38,826 nucleotides of DNA, from positions 1-38,826 of the forward strand of contig JAUYTX010000073.1 of the NCBI GenBank assembly GCA_030695025.1, in the 5' to 3' direction. Shown here piece by piece: positions 3,159 to 32,686 of this stretch. The stretch is from Bacteroidales bacterium (lineage in GTDB: Bacteria; Bacteroidota; Bacteroidia; Bacteroidales; UBA932). Both the position numbers and the translations under genes were made by a program. Position 1 is the first letter of the stretch. Each line of letters begins with the position of its first letter. The notes below the pieces were generated by a model. The model was not told where the DNA came from. It did no database searches and worked only from the letters and a program-made list of their open reading frames with translations.

Positions 3159-5286
3159 GCTGAATTCTTCCTCGTTTAAAATCAACATCCAGCACCTTAA
3201 CAGTTAAATACTGTTGCAATTTCACTACATCTGAGGGATTTGACACAAATTTATCAGCCAGCTGAGATATGTGTATCAGACCATCCTGCTTAATCCCGAT
3301 ATCGACAAATACTCCAAAATTTGTTATGTTAGTAACAATCCCAGGAAGAACCATTCCAATTTTAAGGTCGTCAATAGAGTGAACATCAGAAGAGAACTCC
3401 ATCACTTTTGCAACCCTTCTCGGATCTCTGCCCGGCTTTTTCAACTCCTCCATAATATCGGTAAGGGTAGGTATCCCTGCATCATCTGAAACATATCTTT
3501 TAATATCTATCAGTGACCGGCATTTTTCATCCTTTATTAAATCATCAACACTTTTGCTGATATCTTTTGCCATTCTTGTAACCAAGCCATATCGCTCCGG
3601 GTGAACTGCGGTATTGTCCAAAGGATTATCAGAATCGGGAATTCTAAGAAAGCCGGCACTCTGTTCAAAAGCTTTGCTCCCCAACCTTTTTACCTTGGTA
3701 AGTTCTGTTCTCGTTTTAAATGGGCCGTTGACAGTGCGGTGCTCTACAATATTCTGCGCTATTGCCGGTCCGATTCCTGACACATAGCTTAAAAGGTGTT
3801 TGCTGGCGGTATTTAGGTTAACTCCCACTTTATTAACACAGCTAACCACAGTGTTATCAAGCATCTCCTTTAGCAGCCCCTGGTCAATGTCGTGCTGATA
3901 TTGACCGACTCCCAAAGATTTAGGGTCAATTTTAACAAGTTCTGCAAGCGGGTCCATAACCCTTCTTCCAATTGAGACTGCTCCTCTTACGGTTACATCA
4001 TAGTTTGGAAACTCCTCACGAGCGACAGGAGATGCTGAATAGATTGACGCACCGTCTTCGCTTACTGAAAAGATCTGTAACCCTGCAGGCATGGGTATCT
4101 TTTTGATAAATGCCTCTGTCTCTCTGCTTGCTGTTCCATCACCAATGGCAATTATCTCAATTTTATATGACTCAACAAGATTCGATATTTTTTTAATAGC
4201 CTGAATCTTTTCATTTACTGGTGGGTGAGGATAAATAGTATCATTGTGCAACAACTCTCCCTGTGAGTCAAGACAAACAACCTTACAACCGGTTCTGAAT
4301 CCGGGGTCTATTGCAAGTACTCTTTTTTGCCCAACAGGTGCAGCCAAAAGCAGTGCAGTGAGATTTTCTCCGAAAACCTTGACAGCTTCTAAATCTGCTC
4401 TCTCCTTAGCTATTCTTAATACCTCGTTTTCGATAGATGGATGAAGAAGCCTTTTGTAGGAATCTTCCAATGCAATGTCTATTTGCTCCCTGCAACTTTT
4501 TGAAAAAAGATCCTTTTTTACGAAAACCACTCTTTTTAGTTCATTCAAAGAGTATTCGCTCTCGACATCAAGTTTTACACTTAAGTGACCCTCCTTTTCT
4601 CCGCGAAGTAACGCAAGAACTCTGTGTGATGGCATATTAGCTATTGATCCGCTAAAGTCAAAGTAATTTCTGAATTTGCTGGATTCCTCAGTTTCTGCCT
4701 CCAATCCTCTTTGCTGCTTGGATACAACTTTAGCATGTCTTAAGTATTGTCTTCTTAATGATTCCCTTACCGCAGGTATTTCACTAATATTCTCGGCAAT
4801 AATATCCCTAGCTCCCTGTAACGCCTCTTCAATATCAGAAACCTCCTGCCCAACATACTCTTGTGCTGCTCTGCTGCAATCCTGAACTGACATCTCTGTG
4901 ATTGCTATAGCTAAAGGTTCAAGTCCTTTCGCTCTTGCAATACTTGCCTTCGTGCGCCTCTTTGGTTTAAAAGGAAGATAAATATCTTCCAGCTTATTAG
5001 TGTCGATGCAACTCTCAATCTCTTGTTTAAGAGAATCAGTTAGTTTTTCCTGCTCTGCTATGCTTTTAAGAATTGCTGCTTTTCTCTTGTCAAGTTCCTC
5101 AAACCTTGTGTGTAAGTGTTTAATTTCAGTGATTTGCACCTCATCCAGACCACCTGTTCTCTCTTTACGATATCTTGAAACAAAAGGTATGGTTGCACCC
5201 TCTTCAAAAAGGGCAATACAATGTTCAACCTGCCATTCGGCAACAGATAGCTGCCTGCTAATAAATTCAATATAATTTCTAGTCAT
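3118..5286 (-). CDS. tex: Tex-family S1 RNA-binding transcription accessory protein
   Basis: This 722-residue protein has the Tex layout: an N-terminal helical/HTH region (with GATIPFVSRYRKE), a YqgF-like RNase H fold (VLAIDPGFRTGCKV, roughly residue 325 on), helix-hairpin-helix repeats (VGVNLNTASKHLLSYVSGIG) and a C-terminal S1 domain (GIVTNITNFGVFVDIGIKQD, roughly residues 635-710). Tex binds nucleic acid and is linked to transcription fidelity and stress tolerance in other bacteria. The start at 5286 gives the usual Tex N terminus; an upstream in-frame ATG at 5343 would add 19 residues lying inside clc. With this start, ATG and the clc stop overlap in ATGACTAG, indicating translational coupling. 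The 3' end overlaps the convergent transporter gene. Confidence 0.93.
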   Translation of the reverse strand: MTRNYIEFISRQLSVAEWQVEHCIALFEEGATIPFVSRYRKERTGGLDEVQITEIKHLHTRFEELDKRKAAILKSIAEQEKLTDSLKQEIESCIDTNKLEDIYLPFKPKRRTKASIARAKGLEPLAIAITEMSVQDCSRAAQEYVGQEVSDIEEALQGARDIIAENISEIPAVRESLRRQYLRHAKVVSKQQRGLEAETEESSKFRNYFDFSGSIANMPSHRVLALLRGEKEGHLSVKLDVESEYSLNELKRVVFVKKDLFSKSCREQIDIALEDSYKRLLHPSIENEVLRIAKERADLEAVKVFGENLTALLLAAPVGQKRVLAIDPGFRTGCKVVCLDSQGELLHNDTIYPHPPVNEKIQAIKKISNLVESYKIEIIAIGDGTASRETEAFIKKIPMPAGLQIFSVSEDGASIYSASPVAREEFPNYDVTVRGAVSIGRRVMDPLAELVKIDPKSLGVGQYQHDIDQGLLKEMLDNTVVSCVNKVGVNLNTASKHLLSYVSGIGPAIAQNIVEHRTVNGPFKTRTELTKVKRLGSKAFEQSAGFLRIPDSDNPLDNTAVHPERYGLVTRMAKDISKSVDDLIKDEKCRSLIDIKRYVSDDAGIPTLTDIMEELKKPGRDPRRVAKVMEFSSDVHSIDDLKIGMVLPGIVTNITNFGVFVDIGIKQDGLIHISQLADKFVSNPSDVVKLQQYLTVKVLDVDFKRGRIQLTLRGVTSSVSGQ

Positions 5287-7054
5287 GGGATACTTGTTGT
5301 AATTGATCTCTGTATGCAGAGAATATTTTTGATTTTGAGACAAATCCTATATACTTCCCTTGTTTGTCAGTTACCGGCAAATTCCAGGCAGATGTTATTT
5401 CAAACTTCTTCATAACATTCTCCATTTTATCGTCATTAAAAACAACGCCGGGGGGCTCTTTCATTAGTTTCTCAACGTAGGTATTTTCGTAAATGTCCTT
5501 GTTAAACATTATCTCGCGGATATCATCCAGAAGAATAATTCCTTTTAATTTCCCGGAATCATCTATCACAGGAAAAATATTTCTTTTGGAGTGTGCAATA
5601 ATTTTAATCAGATCCGACAATTTGTCCTCAGGTTTAACTCCACTAAAATCACTCTCTACAAGTTCAGATGTTTTTAAAAGAGTTAAAACAGCTTTATCAC
5701 TGTCATGTGTGAGAAGGTCGCCCTCTTTGGCAATCCTTTTAGTATAAATTGAATAGGGCTCAAAAGCTCTGATGGTTGCGTATGAGACAACGGAGGTAAT
5801 AATCAGTGGCATAAGAAGAACATAACCGCCTGTAATCTCTGCAATAAGAAAAATTGCTGTTAAAGGTGCCTGCATAACACCAGCCATAAGGCCTGCCATC
5901 CCTACAAGGGCAAAGTTAGATTCGGGGATTACAAACAACCCGCTTAGATTTATTACCCTGCTTACAACAAACCCTGTTACTCCTCCGATAAAAAGTGTAG
6001 GTCCAAAGGTCCCTCCTACACCTCCTCCGGCATTTGTAAATGACATAGCAAAAACCTTAAAAAAAATTATCGCCCCAAAGAAAGCAGGTACAAACCACTT
6101 ATTTGAAAAGAGATCCCCAAATATATTAGGACCCACGGCACTTAGGGCATCTTTGTTTAAAAGAGCAGTAATTGATGAATAACCTTCACCAAATAACGGG
6201 GGGAAAATAAATATTAGTAAACCTAGCATAAAGGCAGAAATCGCCCACCGCTTGTATGAATTTGATATTCTTTTTATTTGGTCTTCTACCCGAAGAGTTG
6301 TTCTGGTGAAGTAAAGAGATATAAAGCCGCATACAATTCCCAAAACGATATAGAACGGAATATTCCTCATTGCAAACGCCTCAATAGTGTTACTGAAAAC
6401 GACTGCATCTCCCATAAAAAAATATGAAACCGTGGCTGCTGTAACTGGTGACACCAAAAGGGGAATAATTGATGTCATTGAAAGGTTGAAGAGCAGTATT
6501 TCCAGAGTAAACAGAATTCCTGCAAGCGGAGCTTTGAAAATACCCGCCACTGCACCTGCAGCACCACAACCCAGCAATATTGTCATGTTTTTATAGGAGA
6601 GTCCCATCAATCTTGCAATGTTGGAACCAATTGCTGCACCTGTATAAACAATAGGTGCCTCTGCTCCTACAGAACCTCCAAATCCTATTGTGACAGAGCT
6701 TGCAGCCACAGATGACCAGGTATTGTGAGGCTTAATTTTTGACTCATTCCTTGAGATAGAGAGAAGCACCTTTGTTACGCCATGGCCAATGTTGTCTTTA
6801 ATTACGAATTTTACGAAAATCAAGGCAATCAGCATTCCGATACCCGGATAGACTAAATACAAGAGACTCTCTGCCGGTGTATTGAACCATCCTTTAAGTA
6901 ACCATCCGAAGAAATAGATGAGTTTTTTTAACGTAACTGCTGCAACCCCGCTAAGAAGGCCGGTAATAAATGCCAGAACAAGAATAACTCTACTTTCTGT
7001 CATTCCCGAAAGCTTTCCGACAAAGTATCTTAATAGTCTTTGAAAAGAATTCAT
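5279..7054 (-). CDS. ClC-family chloride channel or Cl-/H+ antiporter with C-terminal CBS pair
   Basis: This 591-residue membrane protein belongs to the voltage-gated ClC family. The membrane domain covers about residues 20-435. It contains GGSVGAEAP with the gating glutamate Glu132, and APLAGILFTLE in the helix that carries the second glutamate in antiporters. Two CBS domains follow (about 450-510 and 520-585), which in this family bind nucleotides and regulate transport. The internal proton glutamate position (E203 of the E. coli protein) aligns with Ile186, and the central serine (S107) aligns with His91 (G-H-G-V-T). Channel or antiporter mode is therefore open. It is followed by an 8-base overlap with tex. 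A terminator hairpin for the upstream gene ends only 15 bases before this ATG, so its promoter must be very close, or it depends on read-through. Confidence 0.9.
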   Translation of the reverse strand: MNSFQRLLRYFVGKLSGMTESRVILVLAFITGLLSGVAAVTLKKLIYFFGWLLKGWFNTPAESLLYLVYPGIGMLIALIFVKFVIKDNIGHGVTKVLLSISRNESKIKPHNTWSSVAASSVTIGFGGSVGAEAPIVYTGAAIGSNIARLMGLSYKNMTILLGCGAAGAVAGIFKAPLAGILFTLEILLFNLSMTSIIPLLVSPVTAATVSYFFMGDAVVFSNTIEAFAMRNIPFYIVLGIVCGFISLYFTRTTLRVEDQIKRISNSYKRWAISAFMLGLLIFIFPPLFGEGYSSITALLNKDALSAVGPNIFGDLFSNKWFVPAFFGAIIFFKVFAMSFTNAGGGVGGTFGPTLFIGGVTGFVVSRVINLSGLFVIPESNFALVGMAGLMAGVMQAPLTAIFLIAEITGGYVLLMPLIITSVVSYATIRAFEPYSIYTKRIAKEGDLLTHDSDKAVLTLLKTSELVESDFSGVKPEDKLSDLIKIIAHSKRNIFPVIDDSGKLKGIILLDDIREIMFNKDIYENTYVEKLMKEPPGVVFNDDKMENVMKKFEITSAWNLPVTDKQGKYIGFVSKSKIFSAYRDQLQQVSHD

Positions 7055-26162: not shown

Positions 26163-27758
26163 ATGGATTTAGTGAAGGGGGGAGATATTGACAATACAAG
26201 ACAGGCAGGAAATTCTCCTTTACTGCTTTATACTGTTTCATATATCACCGGAATACTAATCTCACCTCATCTTAACATCCCACCTACATATTCTGCAATC
26301 ATTGCATATTCGGCAACATTAGCCACATTTCTGATTTCACTGGCAAGCATCAAATTAAAAGATTTTAGGTATAGCAAAATAATCAAATTATTGCTTTTGC
26401 TTTCAATGTGTCTTGCCGGTAATTTTAATAATTCAATAAGGCTCAGCTCCACAAAAAACAAACAAATCTCCCTTTTGGTAAAGGAGAAAAAAACGCCTTT
26501 AAAACTGATCGTTAAAAACAGTGTAAAGATAAATAGAAATTCTTCATCGACATTCTGTTTTTCTAAAGAATATAATGAAAAAATTTTGTTATATATAGAC
26601 AAGAAATATCCGGCTGCTGATATTCACATCGGAGATACAATAATTCTTAATTATTCCGGCTCTTCTGTCGAACGGTTGGCAATAAATGGTAATAACGGTT
26701 GGGTGGACTATCTGAAAAGTAAAGGAGTTCTAAGTTTTGGATATGTGAAATCGGGTGAATTCAGAGTAATAAAACCCAGGCAAAAAAGAATACCCGATTA
26801 TCTATTGAATAAAAAATCATCATTAATTCAAAAACTCAACAGAATTTATCCTGACAAAAACTGGGTGGCACTTACTGCAGCTTTAGCAACAGGAGATAAA
26901 ACTAATCTAAAAAAAGAGATCAGAAGCGCTTTTTCTGCATCAGGAAGCATGCATTTAATGGCTGTTTCTGGTTTTCATGCAACTCTTCTCTATATTTTTC
27001 TAAGTTCTCTTTTGTCCTTTATGGGGAATTACAGAGCGATGAAAATCTTTAGAGGAGTTTTGATAATTGCATCTCTCTGGATGCTTGCAATAGTTGCGGA
27101 ATTTACACCTTCGGCCACTCGCTCTGTAATTATGCTCTCTTTTTATATTATTTCAAATTCATTCAGCAAAAGAGGTGTCTCTATTAATACACTGTTTGCA
27201 TCTGCGCTGATTATTACCATAGTAAACCCACAGGCTGTTTACGATGCCGGCTTTCTCCTTTCCTATACAGCATTTGCTTCAATAATATTTATTAATCCCA
27301 TCTTTAGAGACTTGATTAAAACTGAGAACAAAATTGTCAGGTGGCTATGGGGGATTGTTACTGTTTCAATAGCTTGTCAAATAGGAACATCATTAATTTC
27401 AATAAATCTTTTCGGCTATTTCCCCCCCTACTTTCTTCTCTCAAACATCCTGCTTGTTCCGATAATTACATTGATTTTATACGCCGGTTTAGTGGCCGGG
27501 ATTTTTGCCGTAATTGGTATCGGATATGATTTTTTGATAGGAATCTTAAATTATTTATCTGAAACTGCAATATTGATAGTAACAAGAATAGAATCACTCC
27601 CACATTCAGTCATCAAATTAGATCCCGGCCCCGGAGTAGAGATATCAATAGCAGTAATAATTATTGTATTTTTTATAGAATACGGGATAAGTAAGAGAGT
27701 TAAAAAATATATTATTGTTGCCTCTATTATTAATATTGCATTGTGTTTGCTATTATAA
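26163..27758 (+). CDS. comEC: ComEC/Rec2-family competence membrane protein without the metallo-beta-lactamase domain
   Basis: This 531-residue protein begins with hydrophobic helices. A soluble OB-like DUF4131 region follows (about residues 90-205, ending near GNNGWVDYLKSKGVLSFGYV). The Competence domain (about 230-500) carries LTAALATGDKTNL and the signature SASGSMHLMAVSGFHATLLY. In transformable bacteria ComEC forms the channel for single-stranded DNA uptake across the inner membrane. The C-terminal metallo-beta-lactamase-like domain found in many homologues is absent; the protein ends after a membrane helix. The ATG at 26163 has an AGAGG tract just upstream. Its last 29 bases overlap the convergent EamA gene. 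No other competence gene is present here. Confidence 0.87.
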   Translation: MDLVKGGDIDNTRQAGNSPLLLYTVSYITGILISPHLNIPPTYSAIIAYSATLATFLISLASIKLKDFRYSKIIKLLLLLSMCLAGNFNNSIRLSSTKNKQISLLVKEKKTPLKLIVKNSVKINRNSSSTFCFSKEYNEKILLYIDKKYPAADIHIGDTIILNYSGSSVERLAINGNNGWVDYLKSKGVLSFGYVKSGEFRVIKPRQKRIPDYLLNKKSSLIQKLNRIYPDKNWVALTAALATGDKTNLKKEIRSAFSASGSMHLMAVSGFHATLLYIFLSSLLSFMGNYRAMKIFRGVLIIASLWMLAIVAEFTPSATRSVIMLSFYIISNSFSKRGVSINTLFASALIITIVNPQAVYDAGFLLSYTAFASIIFINPIFRDLIKTENKIVRWLWGIVTVSIACQIGTSLISINLFGYFPPYFLLSNILLVPIITLILYAGLVAGIFAVIGIGYDFLIGILNYLSETAILIVTRIESLPHSVIKLDPGPGVEISIAVIIIVFFIEYGISKRVKKYIIVASIINIALCLLL

Positions 27759-28611
27759 ACACTGCAACAATTGCAAGTAATACCCCTATCCACTGTTTGC
27801 GGGTAAAGAACTCTTTAAAAAACAGAACTCCTATAAGAGCGGTCAACATAACAACAGATGCGTTGTGTATAGGAAAAACCACAGAGCCTCCCATTCTGGC
27901 TACATTTACCAAAATCATCTTTGAAGTAAGGAAATTAAATAGCCCCAATATTGATCCAAATGCAATTGTTTTAAGACCAAAACCTATCTCCTGACTCTTG
28001 CTCTTACCTGTTACAAGAGCAGAGAAAGCACTCAATACAAATGCCGTTATAAAAATACCCAATAGAAAGAGTTCTCTCTCACCATCTTTTGAAAGTGCAA
28101 GATTATTTGTCAACTCCATTGAAGTATCAATCATACCGGAGAGGACAAAAACCATTAATGGTAAAATGAATGCCCCTTTTACCCTTTTATCTGATCTCTT
28201 ATAAAGAATAAGAACAAAAGATGCCAATGCCAGTATAATTCCGGCAACTTTAAGATAGAGTCCTGAGCTTTGACCTAGATAAAGTATTCCTACAGTAACG
28301 GGTATAACTACAGACATTTTATTTAATGCTGTTGTAAGCCCGATTCCCACCTTTTGAGTTGAATAGGTCATAACAATAAAACTAGTTACGAAAAGAGTTC
28401 CTACAATTAATGAAGGTACTATCAACTTAGCAGGGAAAAGAATTTCAGTGCCTCCGAAAATAAGGTCTCCAAGAGTGAAAACCATTGCCACAAAGTAGTT
28501 CACGGCAATTGCCTGGTATTTATTAACCTTTTTTACGTTTACTACCTTAAGAGATATGAACATCCCTATGGCAAATAATATGTGGATTATCAGATAAATA
28601 ATGTTCTGCAT
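27730..28611 (-). CDS. EamA/DMT-family transporter
   Basis: The predicted protein has 293 residues and about ten hydrophobic helices in two five-helix halves, as in EamA-type permeases. It ends with VLFFKEFFTRKQWIGVLLAIVAVFIIANT, a typical second-repeat ending. It has low similarity to the transporter at 2256-3158 by eye. The substrate is unknown. A near-match -7 element (TAACTTTA, 28636-28643, minus strand) lies upstream. The 3' end overlaps the convergent comEC tail by 29 bases, and no terminator hairpin was seen between them. Confidence 0.8.
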   Translation of the reverse strand: MQNIIYLIIHILFAIGMFISLKVVNVKKVNKYQAIAVNYFVAMVFTLGDLIFGGTEILFPAKLIVPSLIVGTLFVTSFIVMTYSTQKVGIGLTTALNKMSVVIPVTVGILYLGQSSGLYLKVAGIILALASFVLILYKRSDKRVKGAFILPLMVFVLSGMIDTSMELTNNLALSKDGERELFLLGIFITAFVLSAFSALVTGKSKSQEIGFGLKTIAFGSILGLFNFLTSKMILVNVARMGGSVVFPIHNASVVMLTALIGVLFFKEFFTRKQWIGVLLAIVAVFIIANTMQY

Positions 28612-28657
28612 GCTTCAATTGTTAAAATCATTCTGTAAAGTTAAGTGGAAATTGTCT

Positions 28658-28665
28658 TACATTTG
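28658..28665 (+). promoter_or_regulatory. -7 element (TACATTTG) for the PurF paralogue
   Basis: A perfect TAnnTTTG match 24 bases before the ATG at 28690. It supports the start codon used and an independent transcript. Confidence 0.5.
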
Positions 28666-28689
28666 TGCCCGTCATAAAAAATTTATAGC

Positions 28690-30099
28690 ATGGGCGGTCT
28701 ATTCGGAGTTATTTCAAAGCAAAAGTGTATTACTGATCTATTTTACGGAACCGATTATCATTCTCATTTGGGAACACGCAGAGGTGGTTTGGCGACATTT
28801 AATGTAAGCGGAAGCTTTGCAAGATCAATCCACAATCTTGAAAATTCACAATTCAGAACCAAATTTGAGGATGATCTTAAAAAGTTTGATGGTAATTCAG
28901 GAATAGGTGTGATTAGTGATTCTGATCCTCAACCGATAATTCTGAATTCTCACCTTGGAAAATTTGCGATTGTAACAGTTGGGAAAATCAATAATGTTGC
29001 TGAACTTGAAAGAGACCTCATTTCAGCAGGAAGGAGTTTCACAGAACTAAGTTCAGGTCAAACTAATCCAACTGAACTTACTGCTCTTTTAATAACCGCA
29101 GGAAAAAGCTTTGAAGATGGAATTAAGATAGCTCAGGATAAAATTCAAGGATCATGTTCGTTTTTAATTCTTACAGAGAAATCAATAATAGCATCCCGTG
29201 ACAAATTTGGAAGGACACCTCTTATCATAGGCAAAAAAGAGGGCTGTTTTGCAGTTGCCTCAGAGACTTGTGCGTTTGCCAACTTAGGTTACGAAGAGGA
29301 GTATTATATTGGTCCCGGAGAGGTAGTCGAATTGAATTCAGAGGGGTTCAAAACTGTTATTAAGGCAAAGGAAAAACTTCAGATATGCTCTTTTCTCTGG
29401 ATTTATTATGGCTATCCTACAAGCACATATGAAAAGATCAATGTTGATGATGTAAGGTTTTCACTGGGATATTCATTGGGAAGCAAAGACAAAACAGACC
29501 TTGATGTTTCATCTGCTATTCCTGACTCAGGAACATGTATGGCCATTGGTTTTGCCGCCGGCAAGAAGATCCCTTACAGATGTGCTGTGGTTAAATACAC
29601 CCCTACCTGGCCAAGAAGCTTTATGCCGTCAGACCAGTCAATAAGAGATTTGGTTGCCAAAATGAAGCTTATCCCTAACAAAAGTCTTTTAAGGGAGAAA
29701 CGAATTGCCTTTTGCGACGATTCAATTGTTCGAGGAACACAACTACGTGATAATGCTCAAATTTTGCTTGGTTATGGCGCAAAAGAGATTCATATCAGAA
29801 TCAGCTGCCCCCCTTTGGTGTACCCATGTGAGTTTTTGAACTTTTCTGCATCACGTTCGCCTTTGGAATTAATAACCCGCAGATACATTCTGCAAAAAGA
29901 GGGAGAACACAATAAGAACCTTGATAAATACTCAGACTCCTCATCAAATGAATACAAAGAGATGGTTGAGTTCATCAAAAATGAATTGAATCTATCAAGT
30001 CTTGAATACAACTCGATTGAAACACTAATAAAGTCTATAGGATTACCTAAAGAAAGAATTTGTACTCACTGTTTTGATGGCTCAAGCTACGGAGGATAA
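28690..30099 (+). CDS. Amidophosphoribosyltransferase (PurF) paralogue with inactive glutaminase site
   Basis: This 469-residue protein has the PurF layout: an N-terminal class II glutaminase-like domain (about 1-235) and a C-terminal phosphoribosyltransferase domain. The PRPP loop IAFCDDSIVRGTQ and the preceding flexible loop RSFMPSDQ are kept, so the PRPP site looks competent. The glutaminase residues of true PurF are lost. The N-terminal nucleophile Cys is Gly (M-G-G-L-F-G). The RYPT Arg segment reads SDPQPI, the NGN oxyanion Asn is Val (TVGKINN), and the TSDSE Asp is Pro (TNPTE). It should not hydrolyse glutamine; it might use free ammonia, or act as a regulator or with another PRPP acceptor. 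I believe such a paralogue recurs in Bacteroidales. No other purine gene is adjacent. Confidence 0.85.
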   Translation: MGGLFGVISKQKCITDLFYGTDYHSHLGTRRGGLATFNVSGSFARSIHNLENSQFRTKFEDDLKKFDGNSGIGVISDSDPQPIILNSHLGKFAIVTVGKINNVAELERDLISAGRSFTELSSGQTNPTELTALLITAGKSFEDGIKIAQDKIQGSCSFLILTEKSIIASRDKFGRTPLIIGKKEGCFAVASETCAFANLGYEEEYYIGPGEVVELNSEGFKTVIKAKEKLQICSFLWIYYGYPTSTYEKINVDDVRFSLGYSLGSKDKTDLDVSSAIPDSGTCMAIGFAAGKKIPYRCAVVKYTPTWPRSFMPSDQSIRDLVAKMKLIPNKSLLREKRIAFCDDSIVRGTQLRDNAQILLGYGAKEIHIRISCPPLVYPCEFLNFSASRSPLELITRRYILQKEGEHNKNLDKYSDSSSNEYKEMVEFIKNELNLSSLEYNSIETLIKSIGLPKERICTHCFDGSSYGG

Positions 30100-30124
30100 T
30101 TTTTTCATTTTCAATCTGTAAAAT

Positions 30125-30154
30125 TTTGGTATGTGATATTATTGTATATCTTTG
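30125..30154 (+). promoter_or_regulatory. Complete Bacteroidota promoter (-33 TTTG, -7 TATCTTTG) for the RRM gene
   Basis: TTTG at 30125-30128 is followed after 18 bases by TATCTTTG at 30147-30154. This is the clearest two-part Bacteroidota promoter in the window. It implies a leader of about 35 bases rich in T and A. Confidence 0.7.
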
Positions 30155-30197
30155 TATATACAATTAACCTTTTTTTAAACTATTTATTTCTGTTCAT

Positions 30198-30458
30198 ATG
30201 AACATCTTTGTTTCAAGTTTAAGTTTCCGTGCTAAGAAGGAAGATCTGGCCGAACTATTCGCACCTTATGGAGAAGTTACTTCTGCAAGAATTATTATCA
30301 ATCGCGACACCCGTCGCTCAAAGGGTTATGGCTTCGTAGAGATGCCTAATGAATCTGAAGGAAATGCTGCAATTTCAGCTCTGAACGGTTCTGAGCACAT
30401 GGGTCGTACTATCAGTGTAGCTCAGGCTAACGATCGCCCTGCAAGGGAGGAGTACTAG
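30198..30458 (+). CDS. RRM-type RNA-binding protein
   Basis: This 86-residue protein consists of a single RNA recognition motif. RNP2 is NIFVSSLSF at residues 2-10, and RNP1 is SKGYGFVEM near residue 47 with the aromatic Tyr/Phe pair kept. The helix AAISALNGSEHMGRTISV follows. The tail is short (PAREEY) and lacks the Gly/Arg-rich extension of some homologues. Small RRM proteins are numerous in Bacteroidota, and some have been linked to global post-transcriptional control of surface polysaccharide and carbohydrate-use genes. It has its own strong promoter and terminator, so it is a single-gene unit. Confidence 0.93.
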   Translation: MNIFVSSLSFRAKKEDLAELFAPYGEVTSARIIINRDTRRSKGYGFVEMPNESEGNAAISALNGSEHMGRTISVAQANDRPAREEY

Positions 30459-30492
30459 CAGATTTGAAATTATTCTGATATTGAAGAAAAAC

Positions 30493-30527
30493 AAGAGGAT
30501 GACTTAATGGTCATCCTCTTTTATTTA
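30493..30527. terminator. Bidirectional terminator between the RRM gene and the S46 peptidase gene
   Basis: The stem AAGAGGATGAC/GTCATCCTCTT (30493-30503 with 30510-30520) is perfect, with a six-base loop. It runs into a T-rich tract on the plus strand and into TTGTTTTT on the minus strand, so it can serve both convergent genes. Confidence 0.85.
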
Positions 30528-30565
30528 TACCCTTCTTCTGTGATATTGCAGATTTTCACTAACTG

Positions 30566-32686
30566 TTAGTAGTTGATTTTCATCTCTTCAATTAAATGAT
30601 TATCGCCTGCAAGTTTATCAATTACAAACAGAACAAACCTTATATCTAAAGAGATATTCCTGCAAACCTCCGGGTCATATGCTATATCACTCATAGTTCC
30701 CTCCCATACACGATCAAAATTAATTCCGATAAGCTCTCCCTGTGCATTGATAACAGGGCTTCCTGAGTTACCTCCTGATGTATGGTTGGTAGCAATAAAA
30801 CAGACAGGCACTGTTCCGTTTACTTCCCATCTGCCATAATCCTTTGCTGCGTATATATCTCTGAGTTTTTGAGGTATATTGTAATCATAAATCTCAGGAT
30901 TGTCCTTTTCCATAATACCCTCAAGTGTTGAAGATGGAAAATAATAAACTCCATCGACAGGTTTATAACCTTTAACTTTACCATATGTAATCCGGAGTGT
31001 TGAGTTGGCATCAGGATAGAACTCCATCTCTTTATCAAACTCCATCTGACCTCTCATATAGGTTCTGTACAGAATTGTGAGCTTTCTGTTAATTTCATCA
31101 AATTGAGGCTTTATCTCCTTCGTGTATTTATCGTTGAATGCATTATAAAGTAACACAGCCGGGTCTTTTGCAAACGTTGATTCTGTTACACCATCTTTAA
31201 TAGCATCAAAAGCTTTCTCTCTTGATGCAAACAAGGATGCCTCAAAGAAACAGTCGGCCACAGCCTCAACACTTCCCTTTTTAGTAACAATGTCCTTGAA
31301 AAAATCAGGTTGCATCTCCAGCGGGATATTCTTCTTATACTCATTGACTATGGCAATAAATGATCTTTTGTCAACAGGCAGGTGGTAGTCTTTGTAAAAA
31401 CTCTCCAGTAATTGCCTGATATTATTAGCACTAACCTCCGGTGTCATTTTTGAGTTTCTTGCAATTGCCGAAGTTATGTTACCGGCTAACCTTAGGATTT
31501 CATTTGCATTAATAGCTTCATTATGGTAATCCGTTGCAAATGCATAGGGTTCCAACTCTTCATATAGTTTAGTAAATTGCGAGATAAGTCCTTTGTATTC
31601 TGGCTTATCGTGCGCCCACTTCTCGAATCTGTTCTCAAAATCCTCCTTTACAGAAACTGTTCTAAGTTTTTCAATCCCTCTTGATTCTCCCTGCCATTTT
31701 TTCCATGCGTTAGATACTGAGGCATTCTTTGATGCGTATTTTATGCGAACCTCTTGACTTTTACTCATTTCGTCACGCTGAACATCCAGACGCATGGTTC
31801 TGAGCTTAATTTTGTGAGGGTTAGATAAATCTGTAATGTATCTTACAGCTGAAGAGTGAAGATACTTTTGTGTTCTGCCGGGATATCCGTAAACAAGTGT
31901 AAAATCACCTTCATTAACACCTTTGGCAGAGATTGTAAAAAACCTTTTGGGTTTATATGGCACATTATCTTTTGAATAATCTGCAGGTTTGTTATCCTTG
32001 TCTGCATAAATTCTGAAAAGGGCAAAATCTCCTGTATGTCTTGGCCACATCCAATTATCTGTGTCACCTCCAAATTTACCGATTGACGATGGTGGCGCTC
32101 CAACCAGCCTTACATCGGAATAGGTTTCATAAACAAACAGAAAGTATTGATTGCCATAATATAACGGTTCAACTCGGGCTTGATAATGTGTGTTTTCAGT
32201 GGCTTTTCTGGTAATTTCCTGAGACTTTGCCGAAACAATCTTTGCTCTCTCATCTTCAGACAAATCAGAAGATAAAGAATTAATTATCTGATTTGTAACA
32301 TCTTCCATCTTGACAAGAAAACGTACAGTAAGGCCTCTGTTGGGTAACTCATCCTTTTTGGACATCGCCCAGAATCCATCTCTTAGATAGTCGTTTTCGA
32401 CAGAGCTATGAGATTGAATTTGTCCGAACCCGCAGTGGTGGTTGGTTATTATCAAACCCTCGGCAGATATAAGTTCACCGGTGCAACCTCCACCGAAATG
32501 TACTATTGCGTCTTTAAGTGATGCCTGATTGATACTGTAAAGGTCTTCTGCGGTCAGTTTGAATCCATTTTTCTGAAGGTCTGCCATTCTGTCTTTGATA
32601 AGCAGTGGTAGCCACATTCCTTCATCGGCTAATAAGTTACCGAAGGATATCAGAATGACAGCTAAAGAGATTATAAATCTTTTCAT
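30566..32686 (-). CDS. S46 family dipeptidyl-peptidase, DPP11-like (Asp/Glu specific)
   Basis: This 706-residue secreted serine peptidase of family S46 removes dipeptides from oligopeptide N termini in the periplasm. A signal peptide (residues 1-20, cut near LLA/DEG) precedes the mature start. The likely triad is His84 (TNHHCGFGQIQ), Asp220 (RHTGDF) and Ser641 (GGNSGSPV). Arg659 in NFDRVWEG sits 18 residues after the Ser. This is the same spacing as Ser655 and Arg673 in Porphyromonas gingivalis DPP11, where Arg selects acidic P1 residues (DPP7 has Gly). The length is normal for the family. It is a single gene with its own -7 element and shares a bidirectional terminator with the RRM gene. Confidence 0.92.
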   Translation of the reverse strand: MKRFIISLAVILISFGNLLADEGMWLPLLIKDRMADLQKNGFKLTAEDLYSINQASLKDAIVHFGGGCTGELISAEGLIITNHHCGFGQIQSHSSVENDYLRDGFWAMSKKDELPNRGLTVRFLVKMEDVTNQIINSLSSDLSEDERAKIVSAKSQEITRKATENTHYQARVEPLYYGNQYFLFVYETYSDVRLVGAPPSSIGKFGGDTDNWMWPRHTGDFALFRIYADKDNKPADYSKDNVPYKPKRFFTISAKGVNEGDFTLVYGYPGRTQKYLHSSAVRYITDLSNPHKIKLRTMRLDVQRDEMSKSQEVRIKYASKNASVSNAWKKWQGESRGIEKLRTVSVKEDFENRFEKWAHDKPEYKGLISQFTKLYEELEPYAFATDYHNEAINANEILRLAGNITSAIARNSKMTPEVSANNIRQLLESFYKDYHLPVDKRSFIAIVNEYKKNIPLEMQPDFFKDIVTKKGSVEAVADCFFEASLFASREKAFDAIKDGVTESTFAKDPAVLLYNAFNDKYTKEIKPQFDEINRKLTILYRTYMRGQMEFDKEMEFYPDANSTLRITYGKVKGYKPVDGVYYFPSSTLEGIMEKDNPEIYDYNIPQKLRDIYAAKDYGRWEVNGTVPVCFIATNHTSGGNSGSPVINAQGELIGINFDRVWEGTMSDIAYDPEVCRNISLDIRFVLFVIDKLAGDNHLIEEMKINY

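Follow-up and report, generated by a model that had tools for sequence, protein, structure and literature searches.

The Bacteroidales bacterium of GenBank assembly GCA_030695025.1 encodes, on contig JAUYTX010000073.1, a homolog of PurF in which the glutaminase site is gone and the PRPP site is kept. In textbooks PurF catalyses the committed step of purine synthesis, which depends on glutamine. Because a member of the same family is the only PurF found in several related lineages, the PurF-like enzyme probably starts purine synthesis from free ammonia; we consider it likely to be an ammonia-dependent PRPP amidotransferase which makes 5-phosphoribosylamine for PurD. All coordinates refer to the window, the whole stretch of 38,826 nucleotides that was analysed.

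The PurF-like gene and its substrate sites

The residue comparisons are drawn from an alignment of 154 sequences (137 PurF-like, 15 canonical PurF and two long PurF) with E. coli PurF (NC_000913.3) as the reference, the functions of whose residues are those we take them to have. Locus L039 was left out, L102 was entered as its protein P0004, and L037 and L086 lie outside the gene cluster; only two of 11 candidate long-PurF loci passed the motif filter. The PurF-like ORFs were trimmed to an M[SGA]G start, so the residue tally at position 1 is conditional on that trimming. The frame is full length, as a preliminary description had stated, and its features are as follows (counts are for 137 relatives).

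28658..28665, + strand: candidate Bacteroidales -7 element TACATTTG, no better than chance density in the window
28690..30099, + strand: PurF-like coding sequence, 469 aa (P0001), complete ORF with an ATG start
28690..29364, + strand: former glutaminase domain (Ntn, GATase class II), about residues 1-225, boundary approximate, from PF13537, AlphaFold2 and the structural match
28693..28695, + strand: codon 2, Gly2 replacing catalytic Cys1 in the alignment to E. coli PurF; G in 109 relatives, S in 27, A in 1
28726-28728, + strand: codon of Cys13
28914..28915, + strand: junction of the missing RYxT (Arg73) glutamine-binding loop, between residues 75 and 76; a gap in 137/137
28978..28980, + strand: codon 97, Val97 replacing oxyanion-hole Asn101; V in 137/137
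29068..29070, + strand: codon 127, Pro127 replacing glutamine-binding Asp127; Q 70, P 59, A 5, S 1, H 1, gap 1
29386..29388, + strand: Cys233, equivalent of B. subtilis Cys236 by alignment to 1ao0; Cys in 137/137
29593..29628, + strand: flexible-loop region KYTPTWPRSFMP, residues 302-313, with the family-specific YTPTW; K302, T306, W307 and R309 in 137/137
29716..29742, + strand: PRPP loop DDSIVRGTQ, residues 343-351; D-D-S-I-V-R-G-T in 137/137, bar one E at the first D
29827..29829, + strand: Cys380, equivalent of B. subtilis Cys382 by alignment to 1ao0; Cys in 137/137
30061..30072, + strand: CxxC, Cys458 and Cys461, taken as equivalents of Cys437/440; both Cys in 137/137

The preliminary description, from an alignment by eye, had Cys changed to Gly, the Arg of RYPT lost, Asn changed to Val and Asp to Pro. 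The larger alignment bears out all four, the Arg having gone with the whole loop: residues Arg73-Tyr74-Pro75-Thr76 of E. coli PurF fall inside a deletion in the window protein. The RYxT loop is present in 15/15 canonical and 2/2 long PurF sequences, and all four glutaminase residues are kept in each of the 15 canonical proteins. By comparison, neither the window protein nor any of the 137 relatives has the N-terminal Cys with the glutamine-binding Arg/Asn/Asp set, and the Asp127 position holds Asp in none of them; this pattern is beyond chance, since it is the same in 137 of 137. An intact Cys/Arg/Asn/Asp set elsewhere in the domain, the possibility raised against this reading at the outset, does not occur in the alignment. 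A mis-called start hiding an upstream Cys in the window was ruled out, because the stop-bounded frame has just four residues (KIYS) 5' of the Met. The protein thus has the Ntn-type domain of the class II glutamine amidotransferases (PF13537 GATase_7, 50.6 bits against a cut-off of 25) but not their N-terminal Cys nucleophile (Gly2, no upstream in-frame Cys).

It is scarcely credible that glutamine is still used through another nucleophile, be it an N-terminal Ser or the near-invariant Cys13. Ser stands at position 2 in 27/137 proteins, including 7/12 from genomes in which the PurF-like gene is the sole detected PurF, and likewise in the proteins of family f143 (below); Cys13 is kept in 136/137 against 0/15 canonical PurFs. 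However, Gly occupies position 2 in the other five of these 12 sole-copy proteins, and all four glutaminase residues, the Arg73 loop, Asn101 and Asp127 among them, are absent from the 23/23 PurF-like proteins examined from sole-copy genomes.

The other half of the enzyme is retained, as the preliminary description had it for DDSIVRGTQ and RSFMP (residues 309-313). Positions 366-373 of the PRPP loop (E. coli numbering) are kept in 137/137 save for a single D366E in one sequence, and Lys326 and Arg332 in 137/137. Nearby, Tyr329 has become Thr in 137/137 and Ile335 T, M or L; residues 306-310 of the window protein have an AlphaFold2 pLDDT of <50. Cys236, Cys382 and Cys437/440 of B. subtilis PurF are, we assume, Fe-S ligands. 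The equivalence of the CxxC was set by the following F.G motif, a weak second phmmer stretch placing these Cys three residues off.

The clean promoter that the preliminary description ascribed to the gene was not established: the window contains 50 copies of TANNTTTG, where chance alone would give 46, and TACATTTG was read against what we take to be the Bacteroidales -7 consensus. A scan of 27500-31000 with Rfam gave zero matches at the gathering score. The left neighbor is a divergent EamA-type transporter and the right a small RRM protein. The gene of the latter, an RNA-binding protein (30198-30458, +, 3' of the PurF-like gene), has a same-cluster counterpart in 19/82 sources, mostly near relatives of the window.

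Fold, selection and distribution of the family

Residues 3-382 of the window protein match PurF (B. subtilis 1ao0, E 2e-49); the closest solved relatives by sequence are B. subtilis PurF (1ao0/1gph) and that of Arabidopsis (6lbp), and E. coli 1ecb matched too. Against the NCBIfam purF model TIGR01134 the protein scores 191 bits, under the curated PurF equivalog cut-off of 350. Its AlphaFold2 model (mean pLDDT 86.2, pTM 0.87) has the two-domain PurF fold, aligning over about 430 residues with solved PurF at Z 36-40 (6lbp Z 39.8, 1ao0 Z 39.3) and matching GlmS glutaminase domains at Z about 25.

Mean column conservation is 0.76, 0.73 and 0.73 in three stretches of the former glutaminase domain versus 0.72 and 0.79 in the PRT domain. 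For close pairs dN/dS is 0.015-0.11 in the Ntn part and 0.008-0.13 in the PRT part, ratios having been obtained for 6/8 close pairs per domain; at larger distances almost every comparison had saturated dS. Purifying selection therefore acts on the former glutaminase domain, and gene decay is ruled out by the close-pair dN/dS and the domain conservation. Given the conserved columns, the low dN/dS and the PurF-fold model, the group is a stable, selected family rather than a decaying gene. The proposal that one half-reaction had been lost in a directed manner and not through decay is thereby supported, the pattern being fixed in 137/137 with dN/dS of about 0.01-0.13 in both domains of a predicted PurF fold. 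The gene tree unites the PurF-like proteins in a single clade (SH-aLRT 100, stem 3.42).

Relatives are encoded in at least 562 stretches of GTDB species contigs, and the best 80 of these are all titled as Bacteroidales or Bacteroidetes taxa. Matches of about 60% identity in a class sample of 149 genomes were confined to the order of the window, namely the window and three other genomes; an order sample of 198 Bacteroidales genomes yielded 57 carriers, with one match each. Outside the Bacteroidota a relative occurs in Peptoclostridium acidaminophilum (52% identity) and another on the faecal contig MT836108, host unstated and record labelled phage (45% identity). PurF-like sequences are presumably widespread in Clostridia.

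Several records are of separate interest. MT836108.1 (L105) is titled 'Bacteriophage sp.', yet its purine gene row looks bacterial. The 83 kb viral contig IMGVR_UViG_3300005613_000033 (L102) carries the PurF-like P0004 at 5001-6377, 52% identical to the window protein, with an RNA ligase of a phage family nearby (phrog_24030, 425 bits), and may hold a phage-borne PurF-like copy; P0004 itself matches phrog_26846, annotated 'unknown function'. A second scan of viral contigs found a PurF-like match on this contig only. NZ_OY725932.1 (L104, 45 kb), filed as a Bacteroides finegoldii plasmid, bears eno, pth and L25 genes and resembles a chromosomal fragment.

Genomes with and without a Cys-type PurF

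The second, Cys-containing purF for which a search had been proposed is present in the window's own genome (91% complete); it is the long Bacteroidota form and lies on contig C29. This long form (about 630 aa) shares the PRPP loop with the PurF-like family and holds the same place in other genomes, but it is longer, keeps Cys1, the RYxT loop and Asn101 (two sequences aligned) and sits on a far branch of the tree; its Asp127 column is Ser in both aligned sequences, possibly through misalignment.

In the order sample the long PurF was found in 168/198 genomes (E<=1e-75) and purD in 190/198 (E<=1e-60). Among the 30 genomes without the long form, nine have a canonical Cys-PurF, three of these carrying the PurF-like gene as well, and 12 have the PurF-like gene with no detected Cys-PurF (G149, G151, G228, G248, G254, G258, G266, G270, G272, G288, G330 and G332). 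Seven others, all <90% complete (G208, G231, G303, G310, G325, G326 and G339), have no long, canonical or PurF-like PurF and are uninformative.

The 12 sole-copy genomes keep later purine genes. All have purD (E<=1e-60), purH (E<=1e-40) and a PurL-type gene, the last below the curated cut-offs in several: nine were identified by TIGR01735 (G266 at only 160 bits), and G149, G228 and G330 by TIGR01736, where G149 (256 bits) and G266 (262 bits) score under the 526-bit cut-off. The large-PurL model TIGR01735 missed G149, G228, G330, G181 and G192; TIGR01736 matched four of these, not G192. The purM model TIGR00878 was left out of the evidence, having recovered 18/31 genomes, many far below cut-off, and missed the window's own genome; PurM is presumably divergent here. 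Across the Bacteroidales three PurF types and at least two classes of PurL occur, and scores against the PurM model are strong in some genomes and weak in others; contig C12 of G156 has the canonical purF, purM, purH and purD in one row.

Other matches in the sole-copy genomes were considered as PurF and rejected. Three of four loci fetched (G228, G330 and G258) are asparagine-synthase-like frames with MCGIAGIYS or MCGIIGVFD starts, and a 662-aa match in G270 (L157) was taken as GlmS from its profile range of 1-223 alone. The other matches of about 620 aa over profile positions 1-230 were read as GlmS by profile range, not case by case.

Near-exclusivity of the PurF-like gene and Cys-PurF in genomes which keep purine genes is seen in the near-complete Bacteroidales (>=90% complete, <=5% contaminated), where the PurF-like gene occurs in 11/13 genomes without a detected Cys-PurF versus 38/154 with one (Fisher p 2.7e-5, kinship not corrected). 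The two of the 13 with neither PurF are G192, which has no purD, purH or PurL either, and G181. In the latter, at 95% completeness, purD, purH and a small-type PurL are present and every kind of PurF is missing, through an assembly gap or another source of phosphoribosylamine; absence calls can therefore be wrong, or another such source can exist. On the gene tree the sole state requires seven changes, at least six of them forced by starred branches, or five if G270 and G332 are set aside. G332, only 81% complete and closely related to the long-PurF genome G230, may reflect an assembly gap; the status of G270 (93% complete), which sits beside the long-PurF genome G153, is also less sure.

The relatives of G228 (family f143) are the clearest case. 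Of 31 genomes searched (E<=1e-10), the PurF-like gene alone occurs in 13 and the long Cys-type alone in 16; no genome has both, and two have neither (G402, with 8% contamination, and G407, 89% complete). This mutual exclusion has p 5e-7, kinship not corrected. All 29 genes were fetched (16 long, 11 new PurF-like and the PurF-like genes of G228 and G330). The long proteins, of which one is truncated, share 55-61% identity with the long PurF of the window's genome, and the Cys is seen in 15/16 frames, L219 being cut by the contig end; the 11 new PurF-like proteins begin with MSGLFG and share 57% identity with the window protein. Since all 13 PurF-like and 11 of the 16 long-form genomes belong to one genus, the PurF swap in this family happened between close relatives; it may have been a single event.

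Most carriers have both enzymes. A Cys-PurF accompanies the PurF-like gene in 45/57 carriers of the order sample (42 long, three canonical). For the named records the comparison covered 48 of 49 loci chosen from 80. Among these 48 genomes 41 have a Cys-PurF-type match (34 long and seven canonical, classed by score, profile range and frame length); all ten of the named-species genomes examined are among the 41. The seven without (G350, G351, G352, G353, G364, G368 and G375) comprise six titled MAG and one Parabacteroides sp., with completeness not given.

Such co-occurrence, and the direct adjacency of the PurF-like gene to purF on MT836108, would fit a pseudoenzyme regulating or scaffolding the true PurF, a function that the preliminary description had also put forward. 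We regard this as improbable, and the PRPP loop is retained. As a general account it fails: the PurF-like gene occurs, with no Cys-PurF detected, in near-complete genomes that have purD, purH and a PurL-type gene. The ammonia-dependent amidotransferase, first among the functions then suggested, is favored.

Gene neighbors, the proposed reaction and its relatives

Gene neighbors were compared in 56 contexts, that is, 57 regions (56 order-sample carriers and G139, the window left out) minus L183 (G260), which has no usable ORF. The PurF-like gene adjoins purL in 11/56, in ten of which purL is directly upstream on the same strand (gaps of 13-109 bases) and in one convergent; carB is directly upstream in 1/56 (18 bases) and pepT directly downstream in 5/56. 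The purL and carB identities were confirmed for one case each. A 1226-aa neighbor in G221, PurL-like by length and without a PurL match, was left out of the count. In the first set of 80 sources (window, named loci and viral contig), pepT is the immediate same-strand downstream neighbor in 38, with gcvT next in 32, the names being taken from the annotated B. finegoldii row. The MT836108 row reads purE, purC, PurF-like, canonical purF, purM, purN. In the remaining lineages the neighbors have no evident link, and no purine genes adjoin the PurF-like gene in the window; clustering with purine genes is absent in most contexts.

These rows bear on two further alternatives. The PurF-like protein could be the synthase half of a two-part enzyme, in which ammonia comes from a separate glutaminase (e.g. 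the PurL glutaminase domain or an unlinked amidotransferase) docked on the dead Ntn domain. In conservation the dead domain is close to the PRT domain, and purL, with its own glutaminase domain, is the neighbor in 11/56 contexts; nevertheless there is no constant glutaminase neighbor, the contexts varying by lineage (purL, pepT-gcvT, carB, RRM and others), and we think this arrangement unlikely. Marginally less probable than the regulator is the third of the earlier suggestions, a PRPP enzyme that uses another acceptor and acts outside purine synthesis. It would accord with YTPTW by the PRPP site and the changes at Tyr329 and Ile335, with the pepT (and gcvT) neighbors in many Bacteroides, Parabacteroides and Phocaeicola loci, and with the pepT which follows the PurF-like gene in P. 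acidaminophilum. Against it stand the purine gene neighbors, and it leaves the exclusivity with Cys-PurF in purD-positive genomes unexplained.

In the ammonia-dependent reading that we prefer, the retained PRT domain would convert PRPP and NH3 to phosphoribosylamine and PPi. The Ntn domain, kept folded and under selection, would no longer bind or split glutamine; it may serve in folding, assembly and gating, and ammonia may enter through the emptied glutamine site, opened by deletion of the glutamine loop. In the genome of the window the enzyme would operate alongside the long, glutamine-dependent PurF, perhaps as the option for high ammonia, and wherever both enzymes occur they may divide the work by ammonia supply. 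In several other Bacteroidales lineages the PurF-like gene appears to have replaced PurF. A bolder picture has such lineages swapping PurF for a natural NH3-only PRPP amidotransferase and, at the same time, the PurF-like-pepT-gcvT row of Bacteroidaceae and Tannerellaceae coupling it to peptide-derived glycine, GcvT cleavage releasing NH3 and the purine one-carbon unit; both parts together we hold to be doubtful.

There is precedent for the chemistry. E. coli PurF with its Cys replaced still uses ammonia, according to PMC3261824, and for the yeast PRPP amidotransferase PMC12017579 describes NH3-dependent synthesis of phosphoribosylamine and the proposal that the glutamine site is where external NH3 enters. 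Compared with the bacterial and plant PurF (EC 2.4.2.14, B. subtilis type), the family shares the two-domain fold, the PRPP loop, the flexible-loop Arg and four Cys at the Fe-S ligand positions, but is without the glutaminase residues, scores 191 rather than 350 bits and forms a separate clade. AsnA and AsnB are an ammonia/glutamine enzyme pair of unrelated folds. The idea of an NH3-only counterpart is common to both cases; here, however, the ammonia form would derive from the glutamine form by the loss of one site.

The nearest parallel by description is the crenarchaeal PurF', a PurF homolog without the N-terminal Cys encoded near purine genes, for which an ammonia-dependent enzyme is, in PMC3261824, one possibility that its authors say needs testing. 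The Bacteroidales family repeats this theme in a different lineage and adds that such a protein can be the only PurF found; in contrast, every crenarchaeon studied there has PurF' beside PurF. In the open-licence PMC literature we found no description of the Bacteroidales family, though one may exist elsewhere, and no Cys-less PurF homolog able to replace PurF.

If true, a widespread Bacteroidales family that can serve as a glutamine-free sole PurF would change the genome-based prediction of purine auxotrophy and nitrogen use, where PurF-based rules would miss this family or credit it with the wrong substrate. The ammonia hypothesis for the crenarchaeal PurF' would also become directly testable in tractable bacteria.
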